From: an uncultured Bacteroidota bacterium | Lineage (GTDB): Bacteria; Bacteroidota; Bacteroidia; Bacteroidales; FEN-979 | Assembly: GCA_937900965.1 (NCBI GenBank) | Contig: CALCGJ010000187.1 | Location: forward strand, 1 to 47,221 | DNA length: 47,221 nucleotides | Direction: 5' to 3' | Shown here: piece after piece, positions 30,375 through 46,638 of the stretch | Position numbering within the stretch: position 1 is the stretch's first letter | Layout: every line of letters begins with the position of its first letter | Notes under the pieces: model-generated | What the model was told of the DNA's origin: nothing | What the model saw: the letters and a program-made list of their open reading frames with translations, nothing else | Database searches by the model: none | Made by a program: the position numbers and the translations under genes

Positions 30375-30508
30375 TGCGGCGCCGGTGGATAAACCATTCC
30401 ATTTGACCAGTCTCCGCCGATCCAAATTGACCACCCCTATGCCGGTGTAAAAATCGGTTCACGCCGGGGCAAATTGACCACCCCCTGCCGATTCAAATTG
30501 ACCACCCC
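30375..30508 (+). repeat. IS21 left-end multiple repeats
   Basis: The motif AAATTGACCACCCC recurs at 30424-30437, 30471-30485 and 30494-30508, each preceded by a GCCGA/GCCGG block, and a degenerate copy (CATTTGACCAG) lies near 30400. Multiple terminal repeats are typical transposase binding sites of IS21 elements. Confidence 0.75.
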
Positions 30509-30580
30509 TTAAGAACGATATTTTCCTTGCTTTAAGGCAGGCATTTATGATTATGTTGATGTGTTATTAACATATCATAA

Positions 30581-32143: not shown

Positions 32144-32222
32144 AATCCCTCCGGTACTTGGACCCGGGCCCGGTTCCGGGTCCCTGACGCCGGATATTGT
32201 TTAACTTAAAACCTGTAAAAAA

Positions 32223-32978
32223 ATGAACGAACAAACTCTTCAAAAAATGAAACAGATGAAGTTCTTTGGCATGGTCAGGGCATTCCGTACAAACATGGAA
32301 AATGGCAATATGGACAAAGTGACCAACGATGAGATGGTATCCATACTGATTGACTCAGAGTGGGATGACCGCAACAATCGACGCATTGAAAGGCAAATGC
32401 GCAACGCCCGGTTCCGGTACAAGGCTAATGTCGAACAGTTGCACTTTGATATCGATCGTAATCTTGACAAAAACCAGTTGATGCGTCTTGCTGAATGTGC
32501 CTTCATTCAACGGAAAGAGAACCTGCTTATAACTGGCAGCACTGGTATCGGTAAGAGTTACATTGCCTCAGCCATCGGGAACCAGGCCTGCACACTTGGA
32601 TACAAAGTACTTTACGCAAATGCAACCAAACTGTTTTCCAGGTTAAAGATGTCCAAGGCCGACGGGTCCTATATCAGGGAGGTCGCTAAAATAGAACGGC
32701 AGGATCTTCTCATCCTTGATGACTTCGGCCTTCAGCCCTTGGATGGATATGGCAGAGCTGTTCTTATGGAAATCATTGAGGACCGGCACGGGAACCGGTC
32801 AACCATCATTACTTCACAGTTGCCGGTGGCCCAATGGTACGAAGTGATCGGAGAGCAAACAGTTGCGGATGCTATCCTTGACCGGATTGTTCATGATGCT
32901 CACAGAATAGAACTGCTTGGAGAATCTCTGCGCAAGACGCAGAGAAACAAAATCACAGAAGATGTTGAAACAGTCTAA
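32223..32978 (+). CDS. istB: IS21 helper ATPase IstB
   Basis: The 251-residue AAA+ protein has a Walker A at 105-112 (GSTGIGKS), a Walker B at about 162-169 (LLILDDFGLQPL) and the sensor region (GNRSTIITSQLPVAQW). These match IstB, the DnaA-like ATPase that selects the target and activates IstA. The frame is full length (IstB is about 245-270 residues). It follows istA on the same strand with an 80-bp gap. Confidence 0.93.
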   Translation: MNEQTLQKMKQMKFFGMVRAFRTNMENGNMDKVTNDEMVSILIDSEWDDRNNRRIERQMRNARFRYKANVEQLHFDIDRNLDKNQLMRLAECAFIQRKENLLITGSTGIGKSYIASAIGNQACTLGYKVLYANATKLFSRLKMSKADGSYIREVAKIERQDLLILDDFGLQPLDGYGRAVLMEIIEDRHGNRSTIITSQLPVAQWYEVIGEQTVADAILDRIVHDAHRIELLGESLRKTQRNKITEDVETV

Positions 32979-33042
32979 AACTATCTAATTTTGTATAACG
33001 TCTAAAAACCAGGAAAATGATCTTTCTTAAGAAGGCAGAAGT

Positions 33043-33111
33043 GGGGTGGTCAACATCGTCGGCAGAAAGGCGGTAAAATGAATCGGCAGAGGGTGGTCAA
33101 TTTGGTCGGCA
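33043..33111 (-). repeat. IS21 right-end multiple repeats
   Basis: GGGGTGGTCAACATCGTCGG at 33043-33062 and GGGTGGTCAATTTGGTCGGC at 33091-33110 are inverted copies of the left-end motif, with a degenerate one between them (GGCGGTAAAATGAATCGGC). Confidence 0.75.
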
Positions 33112-33405
33112 TATCCAATTAATGCCAGCAATTAATTGTTTGTTTTTAGGAATATTTTTTATTACATGGAAATTTGTTACCCCATAAATGGAGTCACCCT
33201 TCAAGATAAGTAACCCTGAGCCTAAAATATTTGATACAAAATTAGTATCAATTAATTCTATTGAAATGGAAACTCGTTTAAGAAGTTGAGCTCTTTCAGG
33301 TAGTTTATAAAAAGTATAATTGTTATATTCTTTAATTTGTGAGTATAATGTGGAGTTTATAGTAATAGCAATAAAAAGCGTAATAATTTTTATTATTGTT
33401 TTCAT
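33097..33405 (-). pseudogene. Trypsin-like serine protease gene cut by the insertion sequence
   Basis: The frame begins at ATG 33405 with a signal peptide (MKTIIKIITLFIAITINSTL, likely cleaved after YSQ). It reads up to GSGLLILKGDSIYGVTNFHV at about residues 61-80, where His is the catalytic His of a trypsin/DegP-like protease. Six codons later the frame enters the IS end (WICRPN is partly IS sequence) and stops at 33097. The Asp and Ser of the triad are missing, so the product is dead. The 3' half is not found on the other side of the IS. Confidence 0.7.
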
Positions 33406-33671: not shown

Positions 33672-33913
33672 TTAAAATAACCCGCCTTCATGAAAACTAT
33701 AGTATCCATTCTCGCACACGATAATGTGATCTAGAATACTGATCTCAAAGATCTTCCCTCCCTCTGCAATCTTCTTTGTAATCTCGATATCCTGCTGAGA
33801 TGGCTGAGTATTGCCTGATGGATGGTTGTGGACCAGGATCAAAGCTGATGCCAGTCCTTGAATAGCAATGTGAAAGATTTTCCTGGGATCAACCACAGTT
33901 GGCGAGATGCCCC
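33672..33913 (-). pseudogene. Truncated radC (second copy, 3' part only)
   Basis: This 74-codon frame, with homology extending in-frame to about 33913, is nearly identical to the C-terminal part of the complete radC at 35817-36464. It carries the JAB/MPN motif HNHPSGNTQPS and the block KKIAEGGKIFEIS. Residues equivalent to 1-135 of RadC are absent. The final residues differ (FHEGGLF against FADYGQI), so the copies have diverged since duplication. It is either a remnant from a duplication or the edge of an older integration. Unlikely to be functional. Confidence 0.75.
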
Positions 33914-34010
33914 CAGTATAATGAAGAAACCTTGAACAAACGGGTGAATGAAAGACTTCTTCAGGATACTAGATTTGGGATAATAAATCATTTATTACTA
34001 TTCCTGGAGG

Positions 34011-34050
34011 TTACTTACTTAAACCTATAGGGAAGTTATCAAGTAAGTAA
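34011..34050. promoter_or_regulatory. Ten-base-pair perfect hairpin before the GIY-YIG-like gene
   Basis: TTACTTACTT at 34011-34020 pairs exactly with AAGTAAGTAA at 34041-34050 across a 20-base loop. On the plus strand GTTTTTA follows, so a weak terminator is possible. It could equally be an operator for the gene starting at 34128. It lies in the 214-bp non-coding gap, which otherwise holds nothing recognisable. Confidence 0.4.
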
Positions 34051-34127
34051 GTTTTTACCTATGGAAAAAGTTATTGTTCTATGCTTTTGAGTTACATTTA
34101 CCGTCAACTTTTTCTTGAATACTTATA

Positions 34128-34685
34128 TTGAGTATATTAAATATGGATATTAGTGAATACATAATGCTCCATGCGGAGCAACTTATCAAGGATTCAAATA
34201 AGCTTAAAGAGATTACCATTCATTGGGAGATACCAATCATCATTGAATGTTCTAATCTTAAATCTAAAGACACTTTTATTAAACAAACTCATAACCCAGA
34301 ATTGCAATATGGTAAATCAAAGCCTGGGATATACTATTTCAAAATAGATAATGAAATTGGAGGCATCGAAGTTGTAAGTTCGTTAGAGCATTATAAAGAG
34401 AAGAAAGAACGATCATGTCCAAAGATTGATAGAAGTAAAAGCATGGATTCCACTTACCTATATTGTGGTAGTGTTAAGAAAAATCTCTTGGATAGACTTA
34501 TTCAACATTTAGGATTTAGACATAAGGATACCTATAGTTTACAATTGGTCCATTGGGCTAAAAATCTTGGTTTAAAACTTGAGTACCACTACGCTTTTAT
34601 GAGAGCTGAGGAAAAGCATCTTATAAGACATGTGGAAGCATCTTTATTCAAAGCATTAAATCCATTGGTAGGGAAAAGGGTTTGA
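34128..34685 (+). CDS. GIY-YIG-like nuclease-domain protein
   Basis: The 185-residue protein has elements of the GIY-YIG fold in order: PGIYYFKID (66-74), YLYCGS (110-115) in place of YxGxT, Arg 123 in LLDRLIQHLG, a helix with Glu 170 (HVEASLFKALNPLVGK), and Asn 178. These correspond to the Tyr, Arg and Glu active-site residues of the family. About 65 N-terminal residues are unrelated and may be a binding domain. Start at ATG 34128 or 34143. It is among the few plus-strand genes here and is isolated on both sides. DNA nicking or restriction-type activity is possible but not shown. Confidence 0.6.
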   Translation: MSILNMDISEYIMLHAEQLIKDSNKLKEITIHWEIPIIIECSNLKSKDTFIKQTHNPELQYGKSKPGIYYFKIDNEIGGIEVVSSLEHYKEKKERSCPKIDRSKSMDSTYLYCGSVKKNLLDRLIQHLGFRHKDTYSLQLVHWAKNLGLKLEYHYAFMRAEEKHLIRHVEASLFKALNPLVGKRV

Positions 34686-34993
34686 TGAGAAGACTCTAAT
34701 TTAAATATAAACTGAAATAATCTATCCTGCCTTTCTGGGATAGAACAGCAAGGCAATTTTGATCCACCGCCCTGATGATTTTCTCAACCTCAATCTGGAA
34801 TCCAACCTGACACAATTGAATCATGGATAGTGAAAATAGGTATATCCAGATTTTCACTACAAGGACTCTTGGATATATAGCCAAATGTCTACCTGTACTC
34901 CATTATCAATAACAAGATGGGGAGATTAGCAAAGCAGTACTTCTTAAATGCTGCAAATACATTATAGACGGTTTAGATTATTGTATATTTTTC

Positions 34994-35001
34994 TATATTT
35001 G
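34994..35001 (+). promoter_or_regulatory. Possible Bacteroidota -7 promoter box
   Basis: TATATTTG at 34994-35001 fits the Bacteroidota -7 consensus TAnnTTTG, with ATTG about 20 bases upstream as a weak -33 box. It is only six bases before the lipoprotein start codon at 35007, which would make the message nearly leaderless, so either the promoter or the start is uncertain. Confidence 0.3.
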
Positions 35002-35006
35002 TTGAT

Positions 35007-35711
35007 ATGAAAAAGGAACAAAACAACAGGCTTTACCTAATAGTATGTATCAACATATTATTTATATTTGCTTCTGGATGTTCAGAAAAAGGGGGCGTAC
35101 CTCAACCTCCCGTTAATGTTCCAGTAGTTATAACTAATAGCAAGGTTTCCTCTCTTACATACTATTCTGCTAAAATATCAGGAAGTTGTTCTGGTAAGGG
35201 GATTAATAGCAGAGGAATCTGTTGGAATACAGGGCATAATCCAACAATAGAATCACCCAAAGTTGATTCCTGTTGTGGAGAGGGGCCTATTTTGGGTAAT
35301 TTGTTTGGTTTAAAACCAAACACTACATATTATGCTAGAGCGTTTGCAGTGAATTCATTTGGAAATGGGTATGGAAATGAAATAACTTTCAACACACCCA
35401 TTCATCCTGAGTTTATTATTACATCAAAGCCCGTGCTGTTGCTAAGTGGGATGGATGGCTTTCAGTTTTTTGCTAAATGCATCAATTACAATGTGCAATT
35501 GACAAAGGTATCCATCATTAATCCAAATCAAGACTCTATCATAACACATTTAAACGGTAATTATTTCATAATGAATGAGCAATTCGATTTACAATCAGTG
35601 GGTACGGCTTATATCAAAGAAATTGGATTATGGACATTCAACTTCAATGGAACAACTGTCGAAAATGGATTGTTGTTCAATGCCGATGTGTTTGTCCAGA
35701 TCAGCAAATGA
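35007..35711 (+). CDS. Lipoprotein with a fibronectin-like domain
   Basis: The 234-residue protein has a signal peptide ending in the lipobox FASGC (Cys 25), then PQPPVNVPVV. A beta-rich domain follows (about 38-130) that ends in NTTYYARAFAVNSFGNGYGN. This is the closing strand pattern of fibronectin-like domains common in surface lipoproteins of Bacteroidota. The C-terminal half (about 135-234) is a second beta-rich part of unknown family. It has four Cys in the mature domain (two adjacent in DSCCGEG). It is a plus-strand gene flanked by mobile-element genes on the opposite strand. Confidence 0.65.
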   Translation: MKKEQNNRLYLIVCINILFIFASGCSEKGGVPQPPVNVPVVITNSKVSSLTYYSAKISGSCSGKGINSRGICWNTGHNPTIESPKVDSCCGEGPILGNLFGLKPNTTYYARAFAVNSFGNGYGNEITFNTPIHPEFIITSKPVLLLSGMDGFQFFAKCINYNVQLTKVSIINPNQDSIITHLNGNYFIMNEQFDLQSVGTAYIKEIGLWTFNFNGTTVENGLLFNADVFVQISK

Positions 35712-35816
35712 AACAAAGAAATAAAGATTCAATACCAGCCCAAGTTTTTCCAACTTGACTCCACTTTTTTTAAACTCCTTCTTGGTAAATTTGACAGGCT
35801 GAACACACAGAATGAA

Positions 35817-36464
35817 TCATATTTGACCATAATCTGCAAAACTGTAGTATCCATCCTCTGTCACAATAATATGATCCAGCACTGAAATCTCGAAGATCTT
35901 TCCTCCCTCAGCGATCTTCTTGGTAATCTCAATATCCACCTGAGATGGTTGAGTATTTCCAGAAGGGTGGTTATGGACCAGAATCAGTGCTGATGCCAAT
36001 CCCTGAATGGCAAGATGGAAGATTTTGCGGGGATCAACCACAGTTGAAGAGATACCACCTTCACTGATCTTTTTTCGATCTATAATGCAACCAGCTCTGT
36101 TTAGAAGCACAATCCAAAATTCTTCGTATGGAATACTGGCCAGAAACTGAAACAGCTCATAGACCTCCTCAGGGCATGAAATTTTTACCTTCTCATCAAC
36201 TCTGGTGGTTTTTCTACGATCTGCCAGTTCAAAGGCAGCTTTCAGCCGGATACTGTCTGAAATACTGATTCCATACCTTGCTGCTAGATCCTGACTGGGT
36301 GTTGAGTATAGCTTTTTCAGGTTATGATCACAAGCTTTGAGAATCTCTTCTGATTTCTCTAATGAGTAATACCGGGCTGTGCCTGAGCTCAGAATCAAAG
36401 CCAGTAGAACGTTATCTGTCAGCTGATGGATTGTATCATCGGATATTTGGTGTTGTTGTTTCAT
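35817..36464 (-). CDS. radC: RadC-family JAB/MPN protein
   Basis: The 215-residue protein has a helix-hairpin-like N-terminal half (about 15-85) and the RadC MPN domain (about 95-215) with the metallo motif HNHPSGNTQPS (His 164, His 166, then Ser and an Asp-bearing DIEI segment). RadC proteins are common in mobile elements of Bacteroidota. Their DNA-repair role is disputed and a metallo-isopeptidase-like activity is possible. It is slightly shorter than chromosomal RadC (about 225-235). A truncated near-copy lies at 33672-33913. It is upstream of nothing on its strand but follows the J-domain gene by 30 bp, so they are likely one operon. Confidence 0.88.
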   Translation of the reverse strand: MKQQHQISDDTIHQLTDNVLLALILSSGTARYYSLEKSEEILKACDHNLKKLYSTPSQDLAARYGISISDSIRLKAAFELADRRKTTRVDEKVKISCPEEVYELFQFLASIPYEEFWIVLLNRAGCIIDRKKISEGGISSTVVDPRKIFHLAIQGLASALILVHNHPSGNTQPSQVDIEITKKIAEGGKIFEISVLDHIIVTEDGYYSFADYGQI

Positions 36465-36493
36465 ATGTTATATAAGCTATGTAATTATAAGAG

Positions 36494-36979
36494 TCATTTT
36501 TGTGATGTCGTTTCTAGTTCTGGTTGGGGGGAGGGGGTGTAGACATCAGACCCGTACTTCCTTCTGATTTGATCAATGCTAAGAGGTTTCCGATTTGCAG
36601 ATTTGTAATCATTCGGCCTCCAGTACCAGAGCTTCTTTTCACCGGCGAAGTAAAATCCCAGCGTTTTCAGTTGTTTGCTATAGCGAAATGTGGCTCCTGA
36701 AAGCCAGATCCAGTTCCCGCAAAGTTCAATAGTGATATCACGGAAGCCGATGATGTTGTTGATGATCTCGGGAAATTCGCTATAGTCTTTCCTTGTTTCT
36801 TCCTTCTGTTTCCAGAATCTGAAGTGCGGGTTCTTCCTGATGGCTTCATACTGGGCATTGATCTCTTGCATCACACGGGTGTCACCACCTCTGTCAGGAT
36901 GATACTGTAATGCCAATTCTTTGTAACGTAATTTAACTTGGTCCAGACTGTCACAGCCTGTATAATATTGTGTCTTCAT
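36494..36979 (-). CDS. Small J-domain (DnaJ-like) protein of the mobile element
   Basis: The 161-residue protein starts with a short J domain (about 5-48): DSLDQVKLRYKELALQYHPD with HPD at 27-29, and a helix MQEINAQYEAIRKN. The rest (about 75-161) is a beta-rich part with WLSGATFRYSKQLKTLGFYF and a Tyr-Trp-Arg-Pro stretch, shared by J-like proteins of Bacteroidota mobile elements. It may recruit host DnaK to the element's replication or partition proteins; this is inference. It sits 30 bp from radC on the same strand. Confidence 0.8.
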   Translation of the reverse strand: MKTQYYTGCDSLDQVKLRYKELALQYHPDRGGDTRVMQEINAQYEAIRKNPHFRFWKQKEETRKDYSEFPEIINNIIGFRDITIELCGNWIWLSGATFRYSKQLKTLGFYFAGEKKLWYWRPNDYKSANRKPLSIDQIRRKYGSDVYTPSPQPELETTSQK

Positions 36980-37103
36980 GATTATTATATTTTGTTTGAT
37001 GATGAATTACTAGTTGTTTTCTTTGTTTTTTATCCTGCCCTAGTATAGAGCAACGAGGTGTTGTGCAGGTTGGAATAGGAAGGGAGCACTGAGCTCCCCT
37101 CCA

Positions 37104-37358
37104 TTATCGTAGGATTAGAAAGTGGTAGTAGGGATAGGCAATCTTGTCAATCAGGTACAGCAGCTTGAGGTCTTTTGAAATATCCACAGACTCCACCCAG
37201 AGGACAAATCCTCGCTGGTATTTGGAGATAGGTATTACAACATGCACCTTGAAAGGACATTTTAACCGTGTGATGATACCATCATTACCTAACACCAGTA
37301 GGCTGTGATGTGAGCAGTACCTGAAGATTCCATCAATGTACTTTTGACGGTTCTCCAT
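37104..37358 (-). CDS. Hypothetical protein, 84 residues
   Basis: A small basic protein starting MENRQKYIDGIFRYCSHHSL. It shows alternating hydrophobic and charged residues (IITRLKCPFKVHVVIPISKY) that suggest a beta fold, and two Cys. No family recognised. It follows the 126-residue gene after three bases, so it is in the same operon. Downstream lies a six-base-pair hairpin (GGGAGC/GCTCCC, 37082-37098) without a T-run. Confidence 0.5.
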   Translation of the reverse strand: MENRQKYIDGIFRYCSHHSLLVLGNDGIITRLKCPFKVHVVIPISKYQRGFVLWVESVDISKDLKLLYLIDKIAYPYYHFLILR

Positions 37359-37361
37359 AGA

Positions 37362-37742
37362 TTAATACTCTGAGGGTAACAGACAGACACCATCAACTAA
37401 CCAGACCTCGAATTTCTCTAATGGGAAGTCACTGTAAGCGATCTCCTGAGCAGCAAGGAAATTCTCATTCCCGTCAGTACACTGGATGAACCAAGAGCCA
37501 TCTCCCTGTTTGATCAGATTCCATACTTGGAACTTCTGTTTTTTTAGATGGATCTGCCAGCTTAAGATTAGATCAAAGAGCCAGTAAGCTGAAGCATGAT
37601 CCCTCGCAAATTCGCATCCATCTGTGAGGTTCATTGTTAATCCTGCTGTAATTCGATGTAAATAGTAGTGCTGTGTGCCGGTAAATCCATCCAGAGCAAT
37701 CTCCAGCTCTTGTTTTGATAATTTTATTGTTTCTGTTCTCAT
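37362..37742 (-). CDS. Hypothetical protein, 126 residues
   Basis: The protein begins MRTETIKLSKQELEIALDGF and has a compact alpha/beta composition: FTGTQHYYLHRITAGLTMNL, a Trp-rich centre (AYWLFDLILSWQIHLKK) and an end resembling a short beta sheet (FIQCTDGNENFLAAQEIAYS). This resembles DUF6876-type proteins of Bacteroidota mobile elements (they share a TDG and W-rich core), but I cannot confirm it. It is three bases upstream of the next small gene. Confidence 0.6.
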   Translation of the reverse strand: MRTETIKLSKQELEIALDGFTGTQHYYLHRITAGLTMNLTDGCEFARDHASAYWLFDLILSWQIHLKKQKFQVWNLIKQGDGSWFIQCTDGNENFLAAQEIAYSDFPLEKFEVWLVDGVCLLPSEY

Positions 37743-37771
37743 ATATAGTTTGGTTTAGATTAATGTTGAAT

Positions 37772-37803
37772 AAAAAAAGGGTAGCCCAGTTGTCGGACTA
37801 CCC
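37772..37803 (-). terminator. Rho-independent terminator for the gene at 37828
   Basis: GGGTAG at 37779-37784 pairs with CTACCC at 37798-37803 (plus a CC/GG pair inside). On the minus strand the hairpin is followed by seven T (the A-run at 37772-37778). It lies 25 bp after the stop of the gene at 37828. Confidence 0.8.
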
Positions 37804-37827
37804 TCTATTGCATACTCAGTTTCTGAG

Positions 37828-38184
37828 TCAGGCTTCTACAGATACAGCCTCTGGTGTGAATACAGCCTCCTCCATTGTCTCCTCATTTGGATTAGGGTTA
37901 TACCTGTACTTGTGGGTCAGCATGATTGTCTCCCCTGTTGATGGGATTGTGTACTCATAGGGCTCAGAGTCTACCTTCTGAATTTCTCCGGGAAGTGATT
38001 TGCCTACCAGCCCTTTGCATACCTCCTCAGAGAAAGTCGTAGAAATGCTGCCCTTCCAAGCTGTTGCATAGAAATTTCCGGTTTTAGATGACAATACAAA
38101 AGTGATGTCACCCATGAGCGTCAATGCATTAAATGGTTCCCCATCAGCATTGATCAATGTCTTGAAATCTGTTACTTGTACCAT
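37828..38184 (-). CDS. Hypothetical protein, 118 residues
   Basis: The start MVQVTDFKTLINADGEPFNA is followed by beta strands (LTLMGDITFVLSSKTGNFYA) and an acidic C-terminus with several Pro and Glu (NPNPNEETMEEAVFTPEAVS). The layout resembles a small single-domain protein common in Bacteroidota mobile elements, perhaps a single-strand-binding-like or phage accessory protein; this is a guess. It has its own terminator downstream (37772-37803), and starts 253 bp from the secreted-protein gene stop. Confidence 0.55.
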   Translation of the reverse strand: MVQVTDFKTLINADGEPFNALTLMGDITFVLSSKTGNFYATAWKGSISTTFSEEVCKGLVGKSLPGEIQKVDSEPYEYTIPSTGETIMLTHKYRYNPNPNEETMEEAVFTPEAVSVEA

Positions 38185-38437
38185 AGTTTTACGGTGTTAA
38201 GTTGGTTTTTACACATGGGATGGGCTTTTCCCACCCAGAAGTTAGGGGGGGTCATTGGGCAAGTCAGGTCACGCTCAAAAATTTTCCAGAAATTTTTTTA
38301 GAAAAATTTATAAAAACACTGCTGGTTGGAACTTTCTTATTTGCTTAAATATCTAGAAAGTTTATTAAATGCAATAATATATATACATGCATATAAAGTA
38401 AGGTAGCTATCACTACCCTCACTTATTGAGGACTATC
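38185..38437. other. Non-coding gap with small hairpins
   Basis: The 253-bp AT-rich gap contains GGTAG/CTACC at 38402-38417, a weak hairpin for the 3' end of the gene at 38438 on the minus strand. It also holds a GGGATGGGC...TTTTCCCACCC arrangement near 38216-38240 that could fold in the leader of the gene ending at 38184. I see no further gene. Confidence 0.4.
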
Positions 38438-39556
38438 TTAAAACCGAGTTCCAGGGTCGAAGTTATACAGAAGGTGGAACATGCATTGCCCGAGCCAGTT
38501 GATCTCCCATACAAGGGTTTGAGTGTTGTAAGTAAGGATGGGTGGATCAACACCACCAATATCATTCAGGTCACCAACAGCTTGAAGAATCTCAATACCT
38601 AACACATAGGTTGATTGATATGTATCTGGCCAGTGGGCATAGCACCAATCAATAAGATTGTTTAGAACGAAAGTGTTGTTAGATGCATTAAAACTTGGAT
38701 CTATCGCCATTTGCAAATAGGGTGTAGTTGGCTGAACTGTATCTTCCTGATAAACCATGTTGAGCTTCCCTTTTGTAGCAGGAGGAAGTTGATCCTCTAT
38801 CCAATACAGACACCTTTCCCTGGCGGTGGCTGTTGGAGCGGTGTAGTTCAAGTCAAACCATGCAGGAGCATTAAGATCGTTATCACTGAACCTGTGGGTC
38901 TGACCCTGTGGGCCTGAGCCGATTACTTGGTTAACCGTAAACATATTGAAGTCACTCATCACCTTGTAGATGTATAGAGTGTCGGCGTTGCCTGTGAAAG
39001 TTACTGGACTACTGTAATCATCCCTTGCTCGTTGTTCAACGTTAGAGAGTTGCCCTGGTCTTTGAATAGCTGTGTATTCGTACCAGATGCTTGTCCAGTC
39101 GATGGTGTTTGGGTGGATAGCATCTACCTCATACGTCCCAGGTGTAACTGCTATACTCGTGTCTCCTGTAGTTAGAACGAGTGAATCTCCTCCTATTATC
39201 AGTGTCGCTCCCGTGAGTAGTGTATCCTCCATCAGGTCCATTATCTTGAAGTATATCTGTGGCGGTGGGGGACTTATTGTCCCTGCTCCAAAGTTGATCT
39301 CTTTCCACTGGTTGGCAGTCTGCACAAACACATAGAACTTGCTGTCCGAGGTACAGAATACCAACAGTCCATTTGCTGGGTCTGGGATAGCTTGGATCTG
39401 AGCCTGGGTTAGACGAGGGAGCAGCACGCCCTTGGAAGTGGACTTTACATCCAGTATGGAGGAGGGGTCTGGAGAAGTGCCATCATTGTTAATACTTACC
39501 TGACCATATCCAGAGACATAGCCCAACACAATAATTAATAAGATTACCCTTCTCAT
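38438..39556 (-). CDS. Secreted protein of unknown function
   Basis: The 372-residue protein has a signal peptide (MRRVILLIIVLGYVSGYGQ). Its first domain (about 20-95) reads SSILDVKSTSKGVLLPRLTQ, AQIQAIPDPANGLLVFCTSD and FYVFVQTANQWKEI, a pattern found at the N-terminus of many Bacteroidota extracellular and fibre-like proteins. The middle (about 100-175) looks like a beta-sandwich (YFKIMDLMEDTLLTGATLII). The rest may be a zinc-free metallopeptidase-like or glycan-binding domain, but I see no His-Glu motif. It is probably exported cargo of the element. Confidence 0.6.
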   Translation of the reverse strand: MRRVILLIIVLGYVSGYGQVSINNDGTSPDPSSILDVKSTSKGVLLPRLTQAQIQAIPDPANGLLVFCTSDSKFYVFVQTANQWKEINFGAGTISPPPPQIYFKIMDLMEDTLLTGATLIIGGDSLVLTTGDTSIAVTPGTYEVDAIHPNTIDWTSIWYEYTAIQRPGQLSNVEQRARDDYSSPVTFTGNADTLYIYKVMSDFNMFTVNQVIGSGPQGQTHRFSDNDLNAPAWFDLNYTAPTATARERCLYWIEDQLPPATKGKLNMVYQEDTVQPTTPYLQMAIDPSFNASNNTFVLNNLIDWCYAHWPDTYQSTYVLGIEILQAVGDLNDIGGVDPPILTYNTQTLVWEINWLGQCMFHLLYNFDPGTRF

Positions 39557-39841
39557 ACGAACTGGATGTAAAAATATAAAAAGTTAGTTAGATGCTGCTA
39601 CTTCACCAATACAAAAGGACACTTTGAAGATACAATCCAAAGCCATCAGTAGACAATGTGTTGATCAATGTTACCTTACATAGAACTACTTTCTTCCTCT
39701 CTCATCAGGGTATCGGGTCAAGCATCTTCCGATATGCACTTTTATCTATACTAGGCCCGTGTGCTGTAAAAGAAAGGGGAATTTGAAGTATAAGTCTGTG
39801 TGATAAAGGTTTGTAAAAATATTGCTGAAAAATATTTCTCC
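39557..39841. other. Non-coding gap between DUF3987 and the secreted protein
   Basis: No frame of note is seen in either direction. The stretch holds the likely promoter and 5' leader of the secreted-protein gene (start 39556) and, at its right end, the 9-bp repeats listed separately. Confidence 0.45.
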
Positions 39842-39868
39842 AACTCCGATAACTCCGATAACTCCGAT
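39842..39868. repeat. Three tandem 9-bp repeats (iteron-like)
   Basis: AACTCCGAT occurs three times in succession at 39842-39850, 39851-39859 and 39860-39868, directly after the stop codon (39872-39874) of the DUF3987 gene. A related set in opposite orientation lies inside that gene at 41135-41161. Confidence 0.7.
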
Positions 39869-39871
39869 GAG

Positions 39872-41515
39872 TTACTCCACTTTTCTATAAAGGTCGCGTT
39901 TTGGGTGCTCAATATATTCAGGTTGAAGGTTTTCTAGATATCTCTCTACAGTGTTTTCTTTAAGCCCTAGCTTTTCGCCAATGGACTCTGCTTCTTTCCT
40001 GGTGAATTTTTTAGGTAGGCTATTTAGAAATTCTCTTGTTGGTCCATATAGCTGCTTTTTATAAGATCCAGGTAGTTGCCGGGCGATGCTAAATGCATGA
40101 TGAGAGAAAACATCTGAGAGGGTTAGAGCAGTTTCAAAATCTTCATTAGTGGCTATTAACTTGTCACCAGGCTTCTCATACATCCTGACAGCAGTGAGGA
40201 TGCCTGCCAACCGAAAACAAACCATACCTTGTCTTCTAATAGTTGCAATAGCATTAGTTGTGACGTGACTTTTATACCGGGCAGACATTTCAGAGAAATG
40301 ATAATTCAGCATAGATTTCTGTTCTTTAGTTAGGTCAAACTTGAAAGTCTTATCAGATGGATCGTTGTATGCCATGAAAATATTAATTGCCTTAGTTTTA
40401 AATGGTTTTAGTAGATCATCCAAGGATTTCTCTTCCACTTCATTCCCTCCATCCGGAAAAACGCTTTTCCAAGTTGGATCAAGTTCAATCCGATAAAAGC
40501 AAAATCTTGAAAATAGGCCATCCTCAGTATCTCTAATGAGGCGATTAACCTGATTAGGCGTACCTGTTAACAAGATGGTTAAGGCCGGCTTTTTAAGTAT
40601 GTGAATAATTGCAGGACTCCCTTTCACACCCTTCCGCATATTTTCATATCGTTCATGCTCATAAGCTTGTCGGAGTAATGCAGTGGTATTCCCCCAATCT
40701 TGATTAAAATTTTGAGTTAAGGTATCTGCTTCAAAAGCGAACATAATCCCCTTACCGTCATTAGCTTTAAGACGTTCAATCAAGACGGCAAAGCTTGTAT
40801 CTGCAGGAAAAAACAACATCTTCTCTTGTCTATCATATTCATCTTCGATCTCCTCCAAAATTACACGAGACCATCTGGCCACAGATTTTCCAGCACTGGC
40901 AGCCCCGACGATCATAGAGTATATATTGAGATGAATCTCTTTCCTGTCATACTTACCATATATATTCGGAAAGCACCCACTGAGCACAGTCAATGTTGAA
41001 AGAAGCAGTAAGTCTTTGTCCTGTTTACTATCGAATAGATCCACGAGATCTTTCAGGAATACAGGTAATCTTGGGTAAATGGATATAGGAATATGTGGTA
41101 GCTGAACTCGGTTATCTTGAGGGGGGTGCATCCCATCGGATTCATCGGATTCATCGGATTTGATCCAGATTTCTGTTTCAGGTAACAGACCCAAATTCAG
41201 CTCCCGGTCAATAATACCACAGATGTGGACAAAATCCAAGCCGTGATCTAGTTTTTTTATTCGAGCACAAAGCTTGAACATATCTCCATACTCTTGACCT
41301 TTTCCTACAGAGAAGGAATATGCCCAAAGATCACCTAGATAACTGATTATCAAATCACTTTCTCTCTCCAGAATGGGATTCCATGAAGAAACCAGTTCTT
41401 CTTCAGATATTTCTTCAAGGTTGCGAAACACATTCTTATAATAATCCATGCCTCTGTCAGTTTTTTCAAGGAGTAACTTCCTTAATTCTTCGTGGGTAAT
41501 TGGTTTATTTGTCAT
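39872..41515 (-). CDS. DUF3987 family ATPase (primase/helicase-like) of the mobile element
   Basis: The 547-residue protein has a Walker A at 204-211 (GAASAGKS in MIVGAASAGKSVARWSRVIL). A downstream region with LTGTPNQVNRLIRDTEDGLF and an Arg-rich FCFYRIELD follows, as in the DUF3987 family that takes the place of a D5/RepA-type helicase in Bacteroidota mobile elements. The N-terminal 110 residues are helical and Lys/Asp-rich. Residues about 121-127 (DESDESD) come from the 9-bp repeats in the DNA. The C-terminal 60 residues contain a winged-helix-like tail (KFTRKEAESIGEKLGLKENT). It would drive unwinding for replication of the excised element. Confidence 0.8.
   Translation of the reverse strand: MTNKPITHEELRKLLLEKTDRGMDYYKNVFRNLEEISEEELVSSWNPILERESDLIISYLGDLWAYSFSVGKGQEYGDMFKLCARIKKLDHGLDFVHICGIIDRELNLGLLPETEIWIKSDESDESDGMHPPQDNRVQLPHIPISIYPRLPVFLKDLVDLFDSKQDKDLLLLSTLTVLSGCFPNIYGKYDRKEIHLNIYSMIVGAASAGKSVARWSRVILEEIEDEYDRQEKMLFFPADTSFAVLIERLKANDGKGIMFAFEADTLTQNFNQDWGNTTALLRQAYEHERYENMRKGVKGSPAIIHILKKPALTILLTGTPNQVNRLIRDTEDGLFSRFCFYRIELDPTWKSVFPDGGNEVEEKSLDDLLKPFKTKAINIFMAYNDPSDKTFKFDLTKEQKSMLNYHFSEMSARYKSHVTTNAIATIRRQGMVCFRLAGILTAVRMYEKPGDKLIATNEDFETALTLSDVFSHHAFSIARQLPGSYKKQLYGPTREFLNSLPKKFTRKEAESIGEKLGLKENTVERYLENLQPEYIEHPKRDLYRKVE
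41135..41161. repeat. Three tandem 9-bp repeats inside the DUF3987 gene
   Basis: ATCGGATTC at 41135-41143 and 41144-41152, then ATCGGATTT at 41153-41161, make an Asp-Glu-Ser-type repeat in the protein. The same core ATCGGA (in reverse orientation) makes the array at 39842-39868. Confidence 0.65.
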
Positions 41516-41580
41516 TGCATCAGTTTATATAGGACAGCAGTGGTTGTTTAGACCACTACTGTCCAAATTTAGATGTGCTA

Positions 41581-41940
41581 TTAATGATCTTCAGGAATAG
41601 TGCCTCCCTTCCATTCCGCTGTCTCTCTCTTTGACAAGCCATGGAAGACTGAAGACGACTCTCGACACCAAATCCTATAGCATTTAAGTTCATTTTCCAG
41701 ATCGACGAGCCTGAAGTAATATCTTCCATTTCGGAAAACGTATGGAAGGTAATTAGCTTCTCTCATCCATTTCAACTCATCTCTCGACATCCCTAAATAC
41801 TCACAGGCTTCTCTAGTGGTATAAAATCGCTTGGTCATAGTCTTCTGAATTTCAGTAACTATCTTTGTTAGTTGTTCGATTTTTTTTGTCAGAGCGACGA
41901 TTTCGTTAACATCTGACTGATTTGAGTTTAATTGCTTCAT
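41581..41940 (-). CDS. Excisionase-like helix-turn-helix protein
   Basis: The 119-residue protein has a coiled-coil start (about 10-35; VALTKKIEQLTKIVTEIQKT). A MerR/excisionase-type winged helix-turn-helix follows (about 40-90): YTTREACEYLGMSRDELKWM and YVFRNGRYYFRLVDLENEL. Such proteins bind the attachment-site DNA and direct excision, or act as regulators. It is the third of three related HTH genes in this operon. Its Trp/Arg-rich C-terminal 25 residues are not in the family. Confidence 0.75.
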   Translation of the reverse strand: MKQLNSNQSDVNEIVALTKKIEQLTKIVTEIQKTMTKRFYTTREACEYLGMSRDELKWMREANYLPYVFRNGRYYFRLVDLENELKCYRIWCRESSSVFHGLSKRETAEWKGGTIPEDH

Positions 41941-42017
41941 GATATTTATTTTGAGTTAATAATTCCTGCTATTTCTCACGTAGTTAAGGTCAGCAGTAAA
42001 CCTTACGGCCTGTATTG

Positions 42018-42302
42018 TTACTGTCGTTTTTGACATTTTCGTAAAAAGCGACGTATATCACCTGAGTAAAAAAGGACTTTGCCTCCAGATCGGGTCTCCT
42101 GAAGTTCTCCCTGATCTCGAAGTGCCTTCATTGCTTTCACTGGTATTCCAAGAAACTCTGCTGTCTCACGAATTGTATATCGGTATTGCTGATAACGGAA
42201 TGCCCTTTTACTATAAAGCTCCTTCTCTTTTGCTTTTGGAGATTTAATCGGGAGTATAAGCTCCTCCATCTCCTTCTCACTAAATAGTGTCGCCATTTTC
42301 AC
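42018..42302 (-). CDS. Small excisionase-type helix-turn-helix protein
   Basis: The 94-residue protein carries a single HTH_17-type domain (about 37-92): YTIRETAEFLGIPVKAMKAL, then SGGKVLFYSGDIRRFLRK. The N-terminal part (EEMEELILPIKSPKAKEKEL) is charged. Its start overlaps the stop of the gene upstream by four bases (42299-42302), so the pair is translationally coupled. It is likely an accessory DNA-binding protein of the element. Confidence 0.78.
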   Translation of the reverse strand: MKMATLFSEKEMEELILPIKSPKAKEKELYSKRAFRYQQYRYTIRETAEFLGIPVKAMKALRDQGELQETRSGGKVLFYSGDIRRFLRKCQKRQ

Positions 42303-42595
42303 TTGCCTGATTCATAAGATTCTACTCTATACTTAGAAAGGAAATTCTCAATATCTGTATGTCGGAAAAAAATTTTATTTCCAATTTGAGAGAAACTCAA
42401 CATCCCTTCATCCCGGTACTTCTGTAAGGTTCTCTTTGAAACCTGTAATAGAGTGCAAGCCTCCATAATTGTGTAGAGTGACTTTGACCCTATACCTCCA
42501 TTAAGGGAATCAACCTTCTTTTCAAGTGATTCGAGCTTCTTTGAAAGCTGAATATATTCCTCCACAGTTATTAGATTGACGTTCATTTTATACAA
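42299..42595 (-). CDS. Excisionase-type helix-turn-helix protein
   Basis: The 98-residue protein has a short coiled coil (about 10-30) and the HTH_17 domain at about 40-92: LYTIMEACTLLQVSKRTLQK, YRDEGMLSFSQIGNKIFFRH and a TDIENFLSK end. This is the binding domain of excisionases and AlpA-type regulators. It is the first gene of the excisionase pair and overlaps it by four bases. Upstream lies a tandem 12-bp repeat (42685-42708) that could be a binding site. Confidence 0.8.
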   Translation of the reverse strand: MYKMNVNLITVEEYIQLSKKLESLEKKVDSLNGGIGSKSLYTIMEACTLLQVSKRTLQKYRDEGMLSFSQIGNKIFFRHTDIENFLSKYRVESYESGK

Positions 42596-42684
42596 CTTTT
42601 TAGTTCCTAATCTTGTTTAATCCATCGAACTTGACGGGGTAAATTTAGCCCTATAAACAGCTGCAAATCAGATACCAAAAAGGA

Positions 42685-42708
42685 AAGGTAGAGTGGAAGG
42701 TAGAGTGA
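42685..42708. repeat. Two tandem 12-bp repeats upstream of the HTH genes
   Basis: AAGGTAGAGTGG at 42685-42696 and AAGGTAGAGTGA at 42697-42708 lie in the 183-bp gap between the 313-residue gene and the first HTH gene. Their position suggests an operator or recombination-protein site. Confidence 0.5.
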
Positions 42709-42778
42709 AAACTGATCTAATCAATAGCAATTGACGGAAAGTGAAAGCGATATGGGAAAGGATATTTTTCTAAAAAAA

Positions 42779-43720
42779 CTACTTAGAGGTAGAGGCTGGC
42801 AACATGGCTTTTATTATACCAACAATTTTTTTAGCTTTATTGTACTTAGGAGCTGGCCCGGGACGGGTTAGTTGAGAGGTTTTGATAATCTTTCCATTAT
42901 GAGTAAAAAATTGCACGGCTCTTTGCCATTTATTCTTTGGAAGCACTTCCTTGACGTATGGTTCCAAATCCCAGATCCCATTTATGAATACATGTAGATC
43001 ATAGATTGTGCCAAGCCAGTCAAGTTGATGTTTTGTTTGCCTTCCGGTGAAAAAGTCAACTAAGATTTGATGATTAATGCTTGTATTTCTCATTAAACCA
43101 AGTTCAAATAACTCCTCAACTAATTGACTAACCGATGCTTCAACGTTATCCTCTCCTGAATTTCCGAGAACAGATTCAATATTAATACCTACTTCGCTTT
43201 TTATTGTAATCTTACCTGCTCTTCCTAAATATTCTTTTTTTAACTTCTGTACAGCTATAATTAGATTTAAAATATGCTGTCTGACAAATGGATAGCGTTC
43301 ATTCCATTCTATTCTGTCTAATTCTCTATTAATATTGTTCAATCCAGTCTCTAAAGACACAAAATATCTTCTGACCAGTTCAAGAGAATCTTTAGTTGAA
43401 ATAGTGGATTGGATATCAGTATAGGCCTTGTCAATCCGTTTCTTAAATTCATAATCTAAAAAACCAGAGAATGAAAATCCTTCTGAGCAACTCAACTGGC
43501 CTGTTAGAGGATGAAAATAAGTGAGATATCGGATTATTTTATCATCGTCAGTGTATTCTGCCAAAGAAGCATTGATTGATTCGTCATCCAGTCCTTGTTC
43601 CTCGTGTAATTCAATTATCATTTTGCCCTCAGGATGGGGAGTTCGGATATATTGTAAATGCATCTGGTTAAGAAAATCCGGTTGTAAACATGCTGCTATG
43701 GAGGTGATTTGTTGAACCAT
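42779..43720 (-). CDS. Hypothetical mobile-element protein, 313 residues
   Basis: The protein starts MVQQITSIAACLQPDFLNQM and is mostly helical and charged. Residues about 190-270 (GEDNVEASVSQLVEELFELG, then FFTGRQTKHQLDWLGTIYDL) have the look of the C-terminal part of RteC-type regulators, but I cannot claim the family. The C-terminus (about 285-313) is basic. It is 11 bp from the integrase gene on the same strand, so the two are probably cotranscribed, and a role in control of excision is plausible. Frame, length and codon use indicate a real gene. Confidence 0.6.
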   Translation of the reverse strand: MVQQITSIAACLQPDFLNQMHLQYIRTPHPEGKMIIELHEEQGLDDESINASLAEYTDDDKIIRYLTYFHPLTGQLSCSEGFSFSGFLDYEFKKRIDKAYTDIQSTISTKDSLELVRRYFVSLETGLNNINRELDRIEWNERYPFVRQHILNLIIAVQKLKKEYLGRAGKITIKSEVGINIESVLGNSGEDNVEASVSQLVEELFELGLMRNTSINHQILVDFFTGRQTKHQLDWLGTIYDLHVFINGIWDLEPYVKEVLPKNKWQRAVQFFTHNGKIIKTSQLTRPGPAPKYNKAKKIVGIIKAMLPASTSK

Positions 43721-43731
43721 TATTTGTAATA

Positions 43732-44940
43732 TTAATCGTTGAACACATCCATCGCCTTGTCCAATTCCTCGTTGATCACTTTAGCATATATCTGTGTCTC
43801 TTTTAGATCCGAATGTCCAAGAAGTTTAGAAACGTACTCTATTCTCATGCCTTTTCTTAGTGCAATTGTGGCAAAGGAATGGCGGCTTACGTGGAAAGTG
43901 ATCTTCTTTGGAATTTTTGCCAGATCAGCAATTTCCTTGAGGTTCTTATTACATAGGGCTGTCTTCTTACCAACGAAGTTGTGAAGTTTAAGCGGAGTAT
44001 CAATATCTTTATCACTGGTCACATAGGGAAATACGAAAGATTCTTGAAAGGATTGATCTGTATGATATAGGTCAAGGATGTCCAATGCCTTTTGTGGCAG
44101 TTTAACCATCTGTGTCCCGCCAGTCTTTTTCATACGAATCAACAACCTTCCATCAGAAATATCCTTCCACCTAAGCACCAGCAAATCGGATATTCTTATC
44201 CCACCTGAATAACAAGCAAAAATAAACATGTCTCTGGTCAACTTGTACCCCGGTGTTTTTGATAGATCTAGCTCTTCGATTGTTTTTAACTCCTCTTCCA
44301 GAAGATAATTGCGTTGAGTGGACTCTGTTTTAAGTGTCATTTTCAGAAATGGATTGTCATCTCTAGACATTAAATCATCTCTAATAGCATCATTCAGGAT
44401 CTTACGTATTATTCTCAGGTTCCCATGAATCGTATTTGTCCTGTTTCCCCATTCTTTTATGCAACAGTCTTCATATTCCTGCAAGAATGTATGTGTGATA
44501 TCCTCCAGATACAAAGGCTTTCCGTCCGTAAATTTCTTCAATTTCTCAATTACTGCCTTAGCACGCTTATAAGTTGCAATTTGCTGGCCAGTCAACAATG
44601 CATTAGTATACTTTTCGGAATATGTGAAAAAGTTAGTTGGTGTAATACCGATAACTTTCTCTTTAAGTCTTTGGGAGGATATAGTTTTTGTCTTTGTTTC
44701 AGCCTCCACAATAAGCCCTTGGGCATCAGCTAACTTCTGGGCAATAAAAGCATTTAAGCGGGCTGAGTTCTTATGTGATTTTTTTACTTTGCAACTAACC
44801 TCATCCCAATCTTTTTCCTGTAATTTGATCCCAAGAGAGAGGATATGTTTTTTTCGATGTTTGATAATCCTCAGATATAGAGGAGATTCTCCCTTTTTAT
44901 TCTTCTTATCTGTAAGAAGTATTAACTTTGTTGAGGCCAT
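43732..44940 (-). CDS. Tyrosine recombinase (integrase)
   Basis: The 402-residue protein has an N-terminal Arm-type region (about 1-95) and a SAM-like core-binding domain (about 100-200). The catalytic domain shows all conserved residues: Arg 249 (SGGIRISDL), His 350 and Arg 353 (FHVSRHSFA), His 376 (LLGHSD) and Tyr 385 (QIYAKV). It would insert and excise the element by recombination at an attachment site. The gene reads away from the presumed element edge at about 45 kb. It belongs to the type typical of Bacteroidota conjugative and mobilisable elements. Confidence 0.93.
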   Translation of the reverse strand: MASTKLILLTDKKNKKGESPLYLRIIKHRKKHILSLGIKLQEKDWDEVSCKVKKSHKNSARLNAFIAQKLADAQGLIVEAETKTKTISSQRLKEKVIGITPTNFFTYSEKYTNALLTGQQIATYKRAKAVIEKLKKFTDGKPLYLEDITHTFLQEYEDCCIKEWGNRTNTIHGNLRIIRKILNDAIRDDLMSRDDNPFLKMTLKTESTQRNYLLEEELKTIEELDLSKTPGYKLTRDMFIFACYSGGIRISDLLVLRWKDISDGRLLIRMKKTGGTQMVKLPQKALDILDLYHTDQSFQESFVFPYVTSDKDIDTPLKLHNFVGKKTALCNKNLKEIADLAKIPKKITFHVSRHSFATIALRKGMRIEYVSKLLGHSDLKETQIYAKVINEELDKAMDVFND

Positions 44941-45094
44941 ACAATATAATTGGTTATAAAGGTATTGAAAAGAGAAATAGGTGCAACAATAGGTGCAACA
45001 AATACTTCATTTAACTTCTTTTGGCTGCATTACAATACAAACTCACAGATATCTATAAGCCTGATAATCTGTTATATGAAAGAATTTGAAAGCA

Positions 45095-45135
45095 GGTGAG
45101 TGCAGTCTCATAAGTCCCCTACGGGCTACTGGAAA
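45095..45135 (+). ncRNA. Possible structured RNA before a terminator
   Basis: CAGT at about 45103-45106 pairs with ACTG at 45128-45131, and AG(T)CCC pairs with GGGCT inside (45113-45127). This makes a bulged hairpin 5 bases before a strong terminator on the same strand. It overlaps no convincing coding frame. It could be the end of a small RNA or the leader of an attachment-site region. A tRNA is not seen. Confidence 0.35.
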
Positions 45136-45329: not shown

Positions 45330-45929
45330 TTACGAACCAGCAAACACAATTAATGGCCTGTAATCACCATTATCAGCTTTTCGTCAAGCTATGATGTAGG
45401 TGGTCCGTAACTCACTTTCCTGATATAGACTATTATGACTCCCCCAGGTAAAGCCATCCTGCCCTGTCAAATACTTTATCAGTATATCAGCACATAATCT
45501 TGCATGTCGGCCATTACCGTTTGGGAAGCAGTGGATTGATACCAATCTATGCTTAAAGCGAACTGCAATTTCAACAGGATCAAAGGTTCTATTGATAATC
45601 CAGTATTTTATATCATCAAGCATGTGGATTAATGCCGGGTCAATAGAATATTTATCAACCCCTATATTTTTATTTGAAGTGCGTTTTTCTCCAGCCCAAT
45701 CCCAAACTTTATTGAACATCCTGAAATGAACATTGAAGATCCATTCTCTGGTTAACAACGTCTTAATGGGAATTTTCCGGTTAAGTGCCCAGTGAAAAGC
45801 CTCTTCAATATTGTTCTGCTCATGTTCGTTGAGTTCACCCACAGTAGTAATAGTTTTGATCTTTAGCCCGGAAATCTCAATTTCATTTAAAGGGGTCTGG
45901 CCACTTATATAGTCCAATTTTATTCCCAT
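45330..45929 (-). pseudogene. Mobile mystery protein B (Fic domain) with a premature stop
   Basis: The protein has a Fic domain with HCFPNGNGRHAR at 133-144, the AMPylation motif in which the usual Asp/Glu is Asn. The frame stops at TGA 45384-45386 after 181 codons, but continues in the same frame for 18 codons (RKADNGDYRPLIVFAGS) to TAA at 45330. This tail is the conserved end of mobile mystery protein B, so the TGA replaces a Leu-type codon and truncates the product. The start overlaps the HTH gene by ten bases. A short product lacking the tail may still be made. Confidence 0.75.
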
Positions 45930-46375
45930 AATAACTTTATATTTTTTTGTTTGATTTCCTGTGCTTTGGCTTTTATAGATTTATTCAGCATCTTTTGACT
46001 CACTGCCTGATCCTCCAATTTCATAGTATTGGCTGTCCTGGCAACTATCTTTGTTGCTATTTCAAATGCTCTCTTATCGATCATTTTTTGCAAAGATCCA
46101 TCTAAAGGAACAAAACCATAAACCAGCTTCATGTTTAACTTTTTGCCTATCTGTTCCAAAGATGAAAGGGTGATATTCCCATTTTTCTCCCGGGTTTCGA
46201 TATCTTTGACTCCTTGTGGCGTAATTTCAACCAACTTTCCAAGTTGTCGCATCGACATTCCAAGAGCCATACGGATTGTGTAAATCCAACCATTCGGTGG
46301 ACTATCATCTTTTATCTTGGCTATTTTTTCTATCCTTTTATCGGTTTGGATTAGGATTAACTCTTGTGTTTTCAT
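45920..46375 (-). CDS. Mobile mystery protein A (helix-turn-helix regulator)
   Basis: The 151-residue protein has a Cro/XRE helix-turn-helix at about 32-80 (LGMSMRQLGKLVEITPQGVK, then TLSSLEQIGKKLNMKLVYGF). A C-terminal helical part rich in Lys and Ala follows. This is the partner gene of the Fic protein in the widespread mobile mystery A/B pair, which resembles a toxin-antitoxin system. Its start codon directly abuts the first of three repeats at 46376-46460, so it is probably autoregulated. The 3' end overlaps the Fic gene by ten bases. Confidence 0.85.
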   Translation of the reverse strand: MKTQELILIQTDKRIEKIAKIKDDSPPNGWIYTIRMALGMSMRQLGKLVEITPQGVKDIETREKNGNITLSSLEQIGKKLNMKLVYGFVPLDGSLQKMIDKRAFEIATKIVARTANTMKLEDQAVSQKMLNKSIKAKAQEIKQKNIKLLWE

Positions 46376-46622: not shown

Positions 46623-46638
46623 TTGTCCAGTAAATTCC

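Follow-up and report, generated by a model that had tools for sequence, protein, structure and literature searches.

A candidate mobile island at the 3' end of a tRNA-Glu gene in an uncultured Bacteroidota bacterium

A contig from an uncultured Bacteroidota bacterium (GTDB lineage Bacteroidales, FEN-979; contig CALCGJ010000187.1 of assembly GCA_937900965.1) carries what appears, from its sequence, to be a genetic element integrated site-specifically at the 3' end of a tRNA-Glu gene. The window, meaning the whole stretch of DNA analysed, is one complete contig (C187, 47,221 bp) of a 3.79-Mb genome in 301 contigs; sequence past the contig ends is unreadable. Judged by its predicted genes, the core of the element (an integrase, the gene adjacent to it, HTH_17 genes and a DUF3987 gene) has the order seen in a class of phage satellites, the phage-inducible chromosomal minimalist islands (PICMIs). 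The integration site, one junction and the gene content are directly supported; the remainder of the mechanism we infer. On balance, the odds are about even that this is a non-autonomous mobile island moved by a helper, most probably a phage. An original prediction, made without database searches, had described an integrated element lacking visible transfer or virion genes between positions 33672 and 44940. The attachment site and the open reading frames (ORFs) scanned support that description, with the right boundary moved to 45129, the end of the tRNA-Glu copy. The left limit of 33672 proved to be merely the edge of a truncated radC remnant, and the true left end was not found.

The tRNA-Glu attachment site

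The right end of the element and its flank contain the following features.

45115..45129, plus strand: attR, TCCCCTACGGGCTAC, identical to the final 15 nt of tRNA-Glu, with the element on its left and the flank on its right
44980..44999, plus strand: direct-repeat pair GGTGCAACA-ATA-GGTGCAAC, int side; presumed arm sites of the integrase
45384..46375, minus strand: fic (mobile mystery protein B) and xre (mobile mystery protein A), flank outside the element; TIGR02613 and TIGR02612, above cut-off

The attR sequence TCCCCTACGGGCTAC lies 174 nt upstream of the start of the integrase gene, int, and matches at 15 of 15 positions the 3' end of tRNA-Glu(TTC) on another contig, C186 (3250-3322). This was the only such end returned by a pattern search of the genome, used in place of a whole-genome tRNA scan, and ARAGORN finds no tRNA anywhere in the window. 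With up to one mismatch allowed, TCCCCTACGGGCTAC occurs at two places in the 3.79-Mb genome, both of them exact. A backward control pattern likewise has two places at this threshold, so the weight of the match rests on its exactness and position.

Comparison with an element-free relative, which the original prediction had proposed as a route to the attachment site, proved informative. In a genome from the same family and another genus (G100), fic and xre genes lie 94 nt past tRNA-Glu; they are 85% and 87% identical to the pair in the window and share its order and orientation. G100 thus shows the site as it is without the element. In the window, 254 nt separate the attachment site from fic/xre, and the alignment with G100 extends to about 60 nt before fic. 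As fic and xre encode "mobile mystery" proteins B and A, respectively, this flanking DNA could be mobile in its own right. At 46515-46628 in the same flank, both ends of an IS21-type insertion sequence (IS) are present without a transposase, perhaps an IS21 remnant resembling a miniature inverted-repeat transposable element.

The DNA 5' of int was inspected in the window, in locus L017 (described below) and in 13 of the 16 further loci that encode a similar integrase. One relative, L112, has a 19-nt copy of the tRNA-Arg 3' end 172 nt from its integrase gene, with the intact tRNA-Arg 38.1 kb away. L112 and L078, both of them delimited relatives, have repeat pairs comparable to that of the window at each end; those at the ends of L082 and L090 are less regular.

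The same position also appears to be used repeatedly within the family. Paired direct repeats follow tRNA-Glu in 8 of 25 family loci (L125, L131-L159), the window's own genome included; they start 53-55 nt past the end of the tRNA in seven of the 25 and 36 nt past it in one more. The count leaves out rows without a tRNA-Glu, rows that failed to match the expression and rows with less than 120 nt downstream. When the letters of these loci were shuffled, pairs arose in a mean of 1.4 and a maximum of 5 loci (500 rounds), compared with the 8 observed. tRNA-Glu thus looks like a recurrent integration site. In three of the genomes with such repeats (G1034, G1028 and G634), the 40 kb fetched hold no homologue of the genes of the window element, so that such repeats may be scars.

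Other signals did little to mark out the element: GC content gives no delimitation, and Rfam applied to 32.9-47.2 kb yielded four matches, all far under their gathering scores and two of them on a hairpin after attR.

Gene content of the element

In minus-strand order, starting at the right end, the element encodes an integrase, orf313, three HTH_17 proteins, a DUF3987 protein, a secreted protein, sm118, a DUF6876 protein, sm84, a J-domain-like protein and RadC. The core genes are open frames at full length.

43732..44940, minus strand: int, tyrosine integrase, 402 aa; PF00589 (Phage_integrase), PF13102 (Phage_int_SAM_5) and PF17293 (Arm-DNA-bind_5), all above cut-off
42779..43720, minus strand: orf313, 11 nt after int, in the position of the int-adjacent gene of PICMIs
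42299..42595, minus strand: HTHc, HTH_17; PF12728, 44 bits, above cut-off
42018..42302, minus strand: HTHb, HTH_17; PF12728, 37.9 bits, above cut-off; 39% identity to the counterpart gene of relative L030
41581..41940, minus strand: HTHa, HTH_17; PF12728, 38.6 bits, above cut-off; PHROG 66, excisionase/regulator, E 1.3e-5
39872..41515, minus strand: DUF3987 helicase-type ATPase, 547 aa; PF13148, 126 bits; Walker A motif; 62-67% identity to L030/L029
38438..39556, minus strand: predicted secreted protein, 372 aa, possible cargo; signal-like N-terminus by eye, no credible family match
37828..38184, minus strand: sm118, recurrent module; possible single-stranded DNA-binding protein
37362..37742, minus strand: DUF6876 protein; PF21781, 112 bits, above cut-off; in 8 of 295 class genomes, own included
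37104..37358, minus strand: sm84, recurrent module; small protein with BLAST homologues close to sm118 in relatives
36494..36979, minus strand: J-domain-like protein; PF00226, 24.8 bits, under the cut-off of 27.8; PHROG 15863, E 1.5e-37, no function assigned
35817..36464, minus strand: RadC (JAB domain); PF04002, 138 bits, above cut-off; homologue near sm118 in relatives

The integrase, the three excisionase-like proteins and the DUF3987 ATPase of the original prediction were all borne out by Pfam. The integrase contains R, K, HxxR, H and Y segments, which we take to be the active site of a tyrosine recombinase, and it resembles the integrases of loci L110 and L111 (52-53% identity). A BLAST homologue of HTHc (31-48% identity) occurs near the integrase gene in 7 of 14 loci with related integrases, and HTHc is likely to be the excisionase paired with int. 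The gene between them, orf313, has no family in Pfam, NCBIfam, PHROGs, PADLOC or the Protein Data Bank (PDB), and among 198 genomes of the order it is found in one, its own. A single-sequence fold (pLDDT 36.5) was unusable. As orf313 has no assigned family, it could conceivably be a transfer protein of unrecognised type.

For the DUF3987 protein, the best PHROG primase match spans only profile positions 342-672 of 750. No close relatives were found in viral contigs, and phages and plasmids yielded only distant matches (20-29%). DUF3987 is predicted in PMC5862659 to be a helicase of mobile-element replication. sm118 has homologues in 12 of 395 genomes of the phylum, its own included, and no close relatives in viral contigs. 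The strand order of its structural model (pLDDT 77, pTM 0.56) is presumably that of an oligonucleotide-binding fold. Single-stranded DNA-binding proteins (SSBs) top the Foldseek list weakly (best E 0.019, TM about 0.3), the best VIA-align Z is 4.2 with none at 5, and the best match in a viral structure library has E 0.013 among mixed names. The model suggests that sm118 could be an SSB-like protein.

Leftward beyond radC, two genes on the plus strand precede a truncated radC and an IS21-type element.

35007..35711, plus strand: predicted lipoprotein, possible cargo; N-terminus resembling a lipobox by eye; partial match in NCBIfam (E 2.3e-9) at 36 bits, under its cut-off of 600
34128..34685, plus strand: 185-aa protein, GIY-YIG-like by eye only; no Pfam match; PHROG 19050, E 1.9e-10, no function assigned
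33672..33914, minus strand: truncated second radC, 3' part, a remnant; 81% over 222 nt against the intact radC, with the RadC domain from profile position 49 only
30400..33118 (outer ends approximate), plus strand: IS21-type insertion sequence, istA 30581-32143 and istB 32223-32978, on the side of the missing left end

The genes from the secreted protein leftward had originally been regarded as cargo that could be the purpose of the element. sm118, sm84 and RadC recur together in relatives and so look like element machinery; the secreted protein and the lipoprotein keep their standing as possible cargo. With at least three supposed cargo genes belonging to a recurrent module, and with ten element proteins yielding no defence family in PADLOC apart from RadC, which weakly matches JAB (E 0.0056), the idea that cargo is the purpose is weakened. 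As to individual names, RadC was confirmed by PF04002, the J-domain protein is retained as J-domain-like with its Pfam match under cut-off, and the GIY-YIG label for the 185-aa protein found no counterpart in Pfam, its sole match being the PHROG without assigned function.

Comparison with known mobile elements

Fifteen element ORFs were compared with Pfam, ten of them also with PHROGs, and ten with PADLOC; all negative results from these scans apply to a stretch whose left end was not located. No relaxase, coupling-protein or virion family occurs among the 15 ORFs in Pfam, as had been predicted, and the ten ORFs compared with PHROGs include no credible virion match, the lone marginal one ("minor tail", E 0.014) being the lipoprotein. 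The VirB4, coupling protein and relaxase of an integrative and conjugative element (ICE) are not among the 15 ORFs, nor is the relaxase of an integrative and mobilizable element (IME) that encodes its own, orf313 being without a family. In the same way, the 15 ORFs in Pfam and ten in PHROGs include neither the terminase, portal, capsid and tail genes of a prophage nor the head and packaging genes of a capsid-forming phage-inducible chromosomal island.

The closest likeness is to the PICMIs of Vibrionaceae. The detection model of PMC10803314 consists of PF00589, PF12728 or PF05930, and PF13148 or PF19263, and the window has a co-localised int (PF00589), AlpA-type gene (PF12728) and DUF3987/DUF5906 gene. 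According to that paper, int, alpA and an int-overlapping gene are needed for PICMI excision, and prim for copy number. The integrase, adjacent gene, AlpA/HTH_17 gene and DUF3987/DUF5906 gene occur in the same order in both, with direct repeats. No capsid genes occur among the window ORFs scanned, and PICMIs, as described there, have no capsid-remodelling genes. The three HTH genes of the window element may be compared with the two or three alpA copies reported for six divergent PICMIs in the same paper. The window element differs from PICMIs in its attachment site, the end of tRNA-Glu rather than fis, in its host group, in its extra SSB-like, RadC, DUF6876 and J-domain-like genes, and in that no primase half was seen.

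A second comparison is with Pseudomonas tmRNA islands such as I55, which, according to PMC12595487, also combine a tyrosine integrase and direct repeats at an RNA gene with a lack of autonomous transfer genes. Defence cargo is described there for I55-type islands and occurs in relatives of the window element. I55 has another host and, according to the same paper, has been shown to be moved by a jumbo phage. With ICEs, and with mobilizable elements (IMEs and those that carry only an origin of transfer, oriT), the window element shares an integrase and excisionase-like genes, and homologues of its DUF6876 and J-domain-like proteins lie near a VirB4 gene in one relative; it differs in that no relaxase, coupling-protein or type IV secretion system (T4SS) family occurs in the window ORFs scanned.

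Relatives and mosaic structure

The nearest named relatives of the element are uncultured Bacteroidales. A primase/DUF3987-type BLAST homologue lies near the integrase gene in seven of the 14 integrase-relative loci, and L112 is an eighth by PHROGs; some of the 14 end at a contig boundary. The locus closest in content, L030 (CAIQUS010000164.1), shares HTHb (39% identity), the DUF3987 protein (62%), sm118 (58%), sm84 (41%) and RadC (43%), and differs in its integrase (27% over 271 aa), its right part being cut by the contig end. By eye its integrase gene adjoins the 3' half of a tRNA-Lys; ARAGORN lists no tRNA there. Since L030 is close in DUF3987 and sm118 and not in the integrase, which instead resembles those of L110 and L111, the window element is a mosaic in which an integrase-excisionase block is joined to a replication/maintenance block.

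The module is also found in other islands. Among 11 fetched 20-kb pieces around sm118 relatives, eight contain an integrase homologue and nine a tRNA or tmRNA gene. Three islands could be delimited by tRNA repeats: L078 (18.1 kb, 80-nt repeat), L082 (18.2 kb, 57 nt) and L090 (10.8 kb, 40 nt). L078 has two extra partial copies (43 and 36 nt) of the post-tRNA DNA at 21.6 and 21.2 kb, beyond its 80-nt repeat. No terminal repeats were found within the available stretches of L080, L084, L085, L088 and L089, and L076 has a 13-nt repeat only, which was not used.

L078 and L082 share sm118 and RadC with the window element, L090 shares sm118 and sm84, and an integrase and a tRNA site are common to all. 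They differ in carrying Hachiman and Shedu or restriction-modification genes, in having no BLAST homologue of the DUF3987 protein, and in their integrases, which are 25-30% identical to that of the window. PADLOC identifies HamA, HamB and SduA in L078. In L090 it assigns a type II enzyme together with a methyltransferase; L082 has a methyltransferase and, more weakly matched, LmuB. In L078 (G868:C1, 9796-14461), an island of about 18 kb with a tRNA-Asn repeat, Shedu (SduA) lies beside Hachiman (HamB, HamA). The three islands hold 49 ORFs of at least 60 aa, of which 24 were compared with Pfam (E 1e-5) and included no relaxase, coupling-protein or virion family; the other 25 are integrases, HTH and module proteins and small ORFs. 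An AAA_24 ATPase (one of the 24 proteins scanned) accompanies the module in the delimited islands, and a DUF3871 protein does so in the related L076.

Three further loci deserve mention. On G172:C3 (L124 and L112, 1632-39737), a 38-kb island is bounded on each side by a 19-nt copy of a tRNA-Arg end, and no third copy is present. It encodes an integrase 48% identical to that of the window together with TerL and portal proteins (PHROG E 1.8e-44 and 2.7e-20; TerL also in PDB). Ten of its proteins were scanned, and many other genes are present; it is possibly a satellite of the capsid-forming type. In L022 (G295:C60, 11437-19765), a VirB4-type ATPase (PDB TrwK, E 2e-9) lies about 5 kb from the DUF6876 and J-domain-like homologues. 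An IMG/VR contig (L017, 10001-20837) carries an integrase 44% identical to that of the window, an HTH gene and type I restriction-modification M, S and R genes, with sequence resembling a tRNA end by eye upstream of int.

The left side

Downstream of the intact tRNA-Glu on C186 (L128, G000:C186, 2591-3322) come a repeat pair of the TTTTGTGCC type and a gene resembling, by eye, one for an HTH/excisionase protein. A second element apparently sits directly behind the tRNA. Two congeneric genomes have, by eye, a similar 5' flank at this tRNA. C186 was considered as the left end of the window element and rejected as unproven, its post-tRNA repeat being of the TTTTGTGCC type and not of the GGTGCAAC type. 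The IS21-type element has inverted ends, and its candidate target duplication is a 6-nt match that does not lie at clear IS ends.

Farther left, positions 1-30 kb hold ORFs that by eye encode efflux, P-type ATPase, methyltransferase and metabolic proteins. Among them are an aminotransferase and a thiolase that also neighbour each other in G1042, next to a third gene common to both genomes; the aminotransferase occurs in 2 of 43 family genomes, its own included (E 1e-60). At 6802-16944 there is, by eye, an efflux cluster of the resistance-nodulation-division type (outer-membrane part, pump and adaptor) near a P-type ATPase. Stacking, IS-linked loss and an assembly break are all possible explanations for the missing left boundary, and hence bear on size and completeness. 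On the left, this copy has probably suffered damage or been stacked with a further element.

Proposed mechanism and alternatives

In the mechanism we favour, the integrase would recombine its attachment site with the 3' end of tRNA-Glu, and HTHc, with HTHa and HTHb, would act as excisionase or regulator, perhaps with orf313 as a partner of the integrase. After excision, the DUF3987 helicase, the SSB-like sm118 and RadC could serve replication or repair of the circle, and spread between cells would then take place via a helper. Dependence on a helper is likely. That the helper is most likely a phage is a guess by analogy with PICMI satellites, whose gene order the core shares.

Several observations weigh against this mechanism. 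No evidence of a helper, a packaging signal or induction was found. orf313 has no match by BLASTP to the int-adjacent genes of relatives (three genes) or by hhalign to thirteen proteins of relatives, including an RteC, and no primase half was recognised in the DUF3987 protein. Six of the 14 integrase-relative loci have neither an HTHc nor a primase-type homologue by BLAST, or reach a contig end first; L113, L115, L118, L119 and L120 have neither. The DUF6876 and J-domain-like homologues of L022 lie near a VirB4 gene. On the left, the window contains no second attachment site within 3 mismatches and no second GGTGCAACA arm pair, though L112 and L078 have their own pair at both ends, and the intact tRNA-Glu is on C186 with different repeats after it. 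Since no left end was found, this copy may be immobile. The earlier suggestion of a helper-dependent satellite keeps the agreement of its core order with PICMIs, a proven class of phage satellite (PMC10803314). Its relatives point both ways: the three delimited sm118 islands show no transfer or virion family in the 24 of 49 ORFs scanned, the 38-kb island holds terminase and portal genes, and the L022 locus has a VirB4 gene.

An alternative is that the island carries only an oriT and is conjugated in trans, with relaxase and T4SS supplied by a conjugative element in the same cell. Such elements are common among Bacteroidales, and the neighbourhood of VirB4 in L022 would fit such a route. Hitchers of this kind, with an oriT and no relaxase, are discussed in PMC11389934. 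The scanned ORFs lack a relaxase or coupling protein, and the core order is that of phage satellites; we regard conjugation in trans as an unlikely explanation, if one that deserves attention.

It may also be that the window preserves a relic no longer able to move: the right-hand portion of an element whose left end was lost through IS21 insertion, deletion or stacking with another island at tRNA-Glu. The missing left attachment site and arm pair, the IS21 and truncated radC on that side, and the different repeats on C186 are consistent with this, and the adjacency of the aminotransferase and thiolase genes in G1042 suggests that the DNA left of the IS may be ordinary chromosome. Against it, the core frames are full length, the integrase keeps its active-site segments, and the missing end may lie on another contig; a relic thus seems no likelier than transfer by conjugation. 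That the window holds part of a larger autonomous element (an ICE or prophage), with transfer or virion genes past the contig or left of IS21, is improbable: the unlocated left end and the TerL and portal genes of the 38-kb island would allow it, but the ORFs of 1-30 kb show, by eye only, no tra or virion set.

Implications

If a helper-moved island is the correct description of the window element, it could belong to something broader. We tentatively raise the possibility, which we consider rather unlikely as a whole, of undescribed phage satellites throughout the Bacteroidota that target tRNA and tmRNA genes, exchange integrase-excisionase and replication blocks, carry a private SSB-like/RadC module and rotate anti-phage cargo, some of them (as on G172) with packaging genes like those of capsid-forming satellites. 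In searches of the open-licence PMC literature on satellites in this phylum, no title or abstract opening among the papers listed describes phage satellites of Bacteroidota, which is not proof of absence. How genomic islands without transfer genes move is, according to PMC11389934, an open question for many of them. The present island has a defined integration site, one defined end and defined core genes, and a recurring module links it to islands in other genomes of the phylum, some of them with Hachiman, Shedu or restriction-modification genes. sm118 provides a marker for locating complete copies in culturable hosts, where a phage or conjugative helper could be tested.

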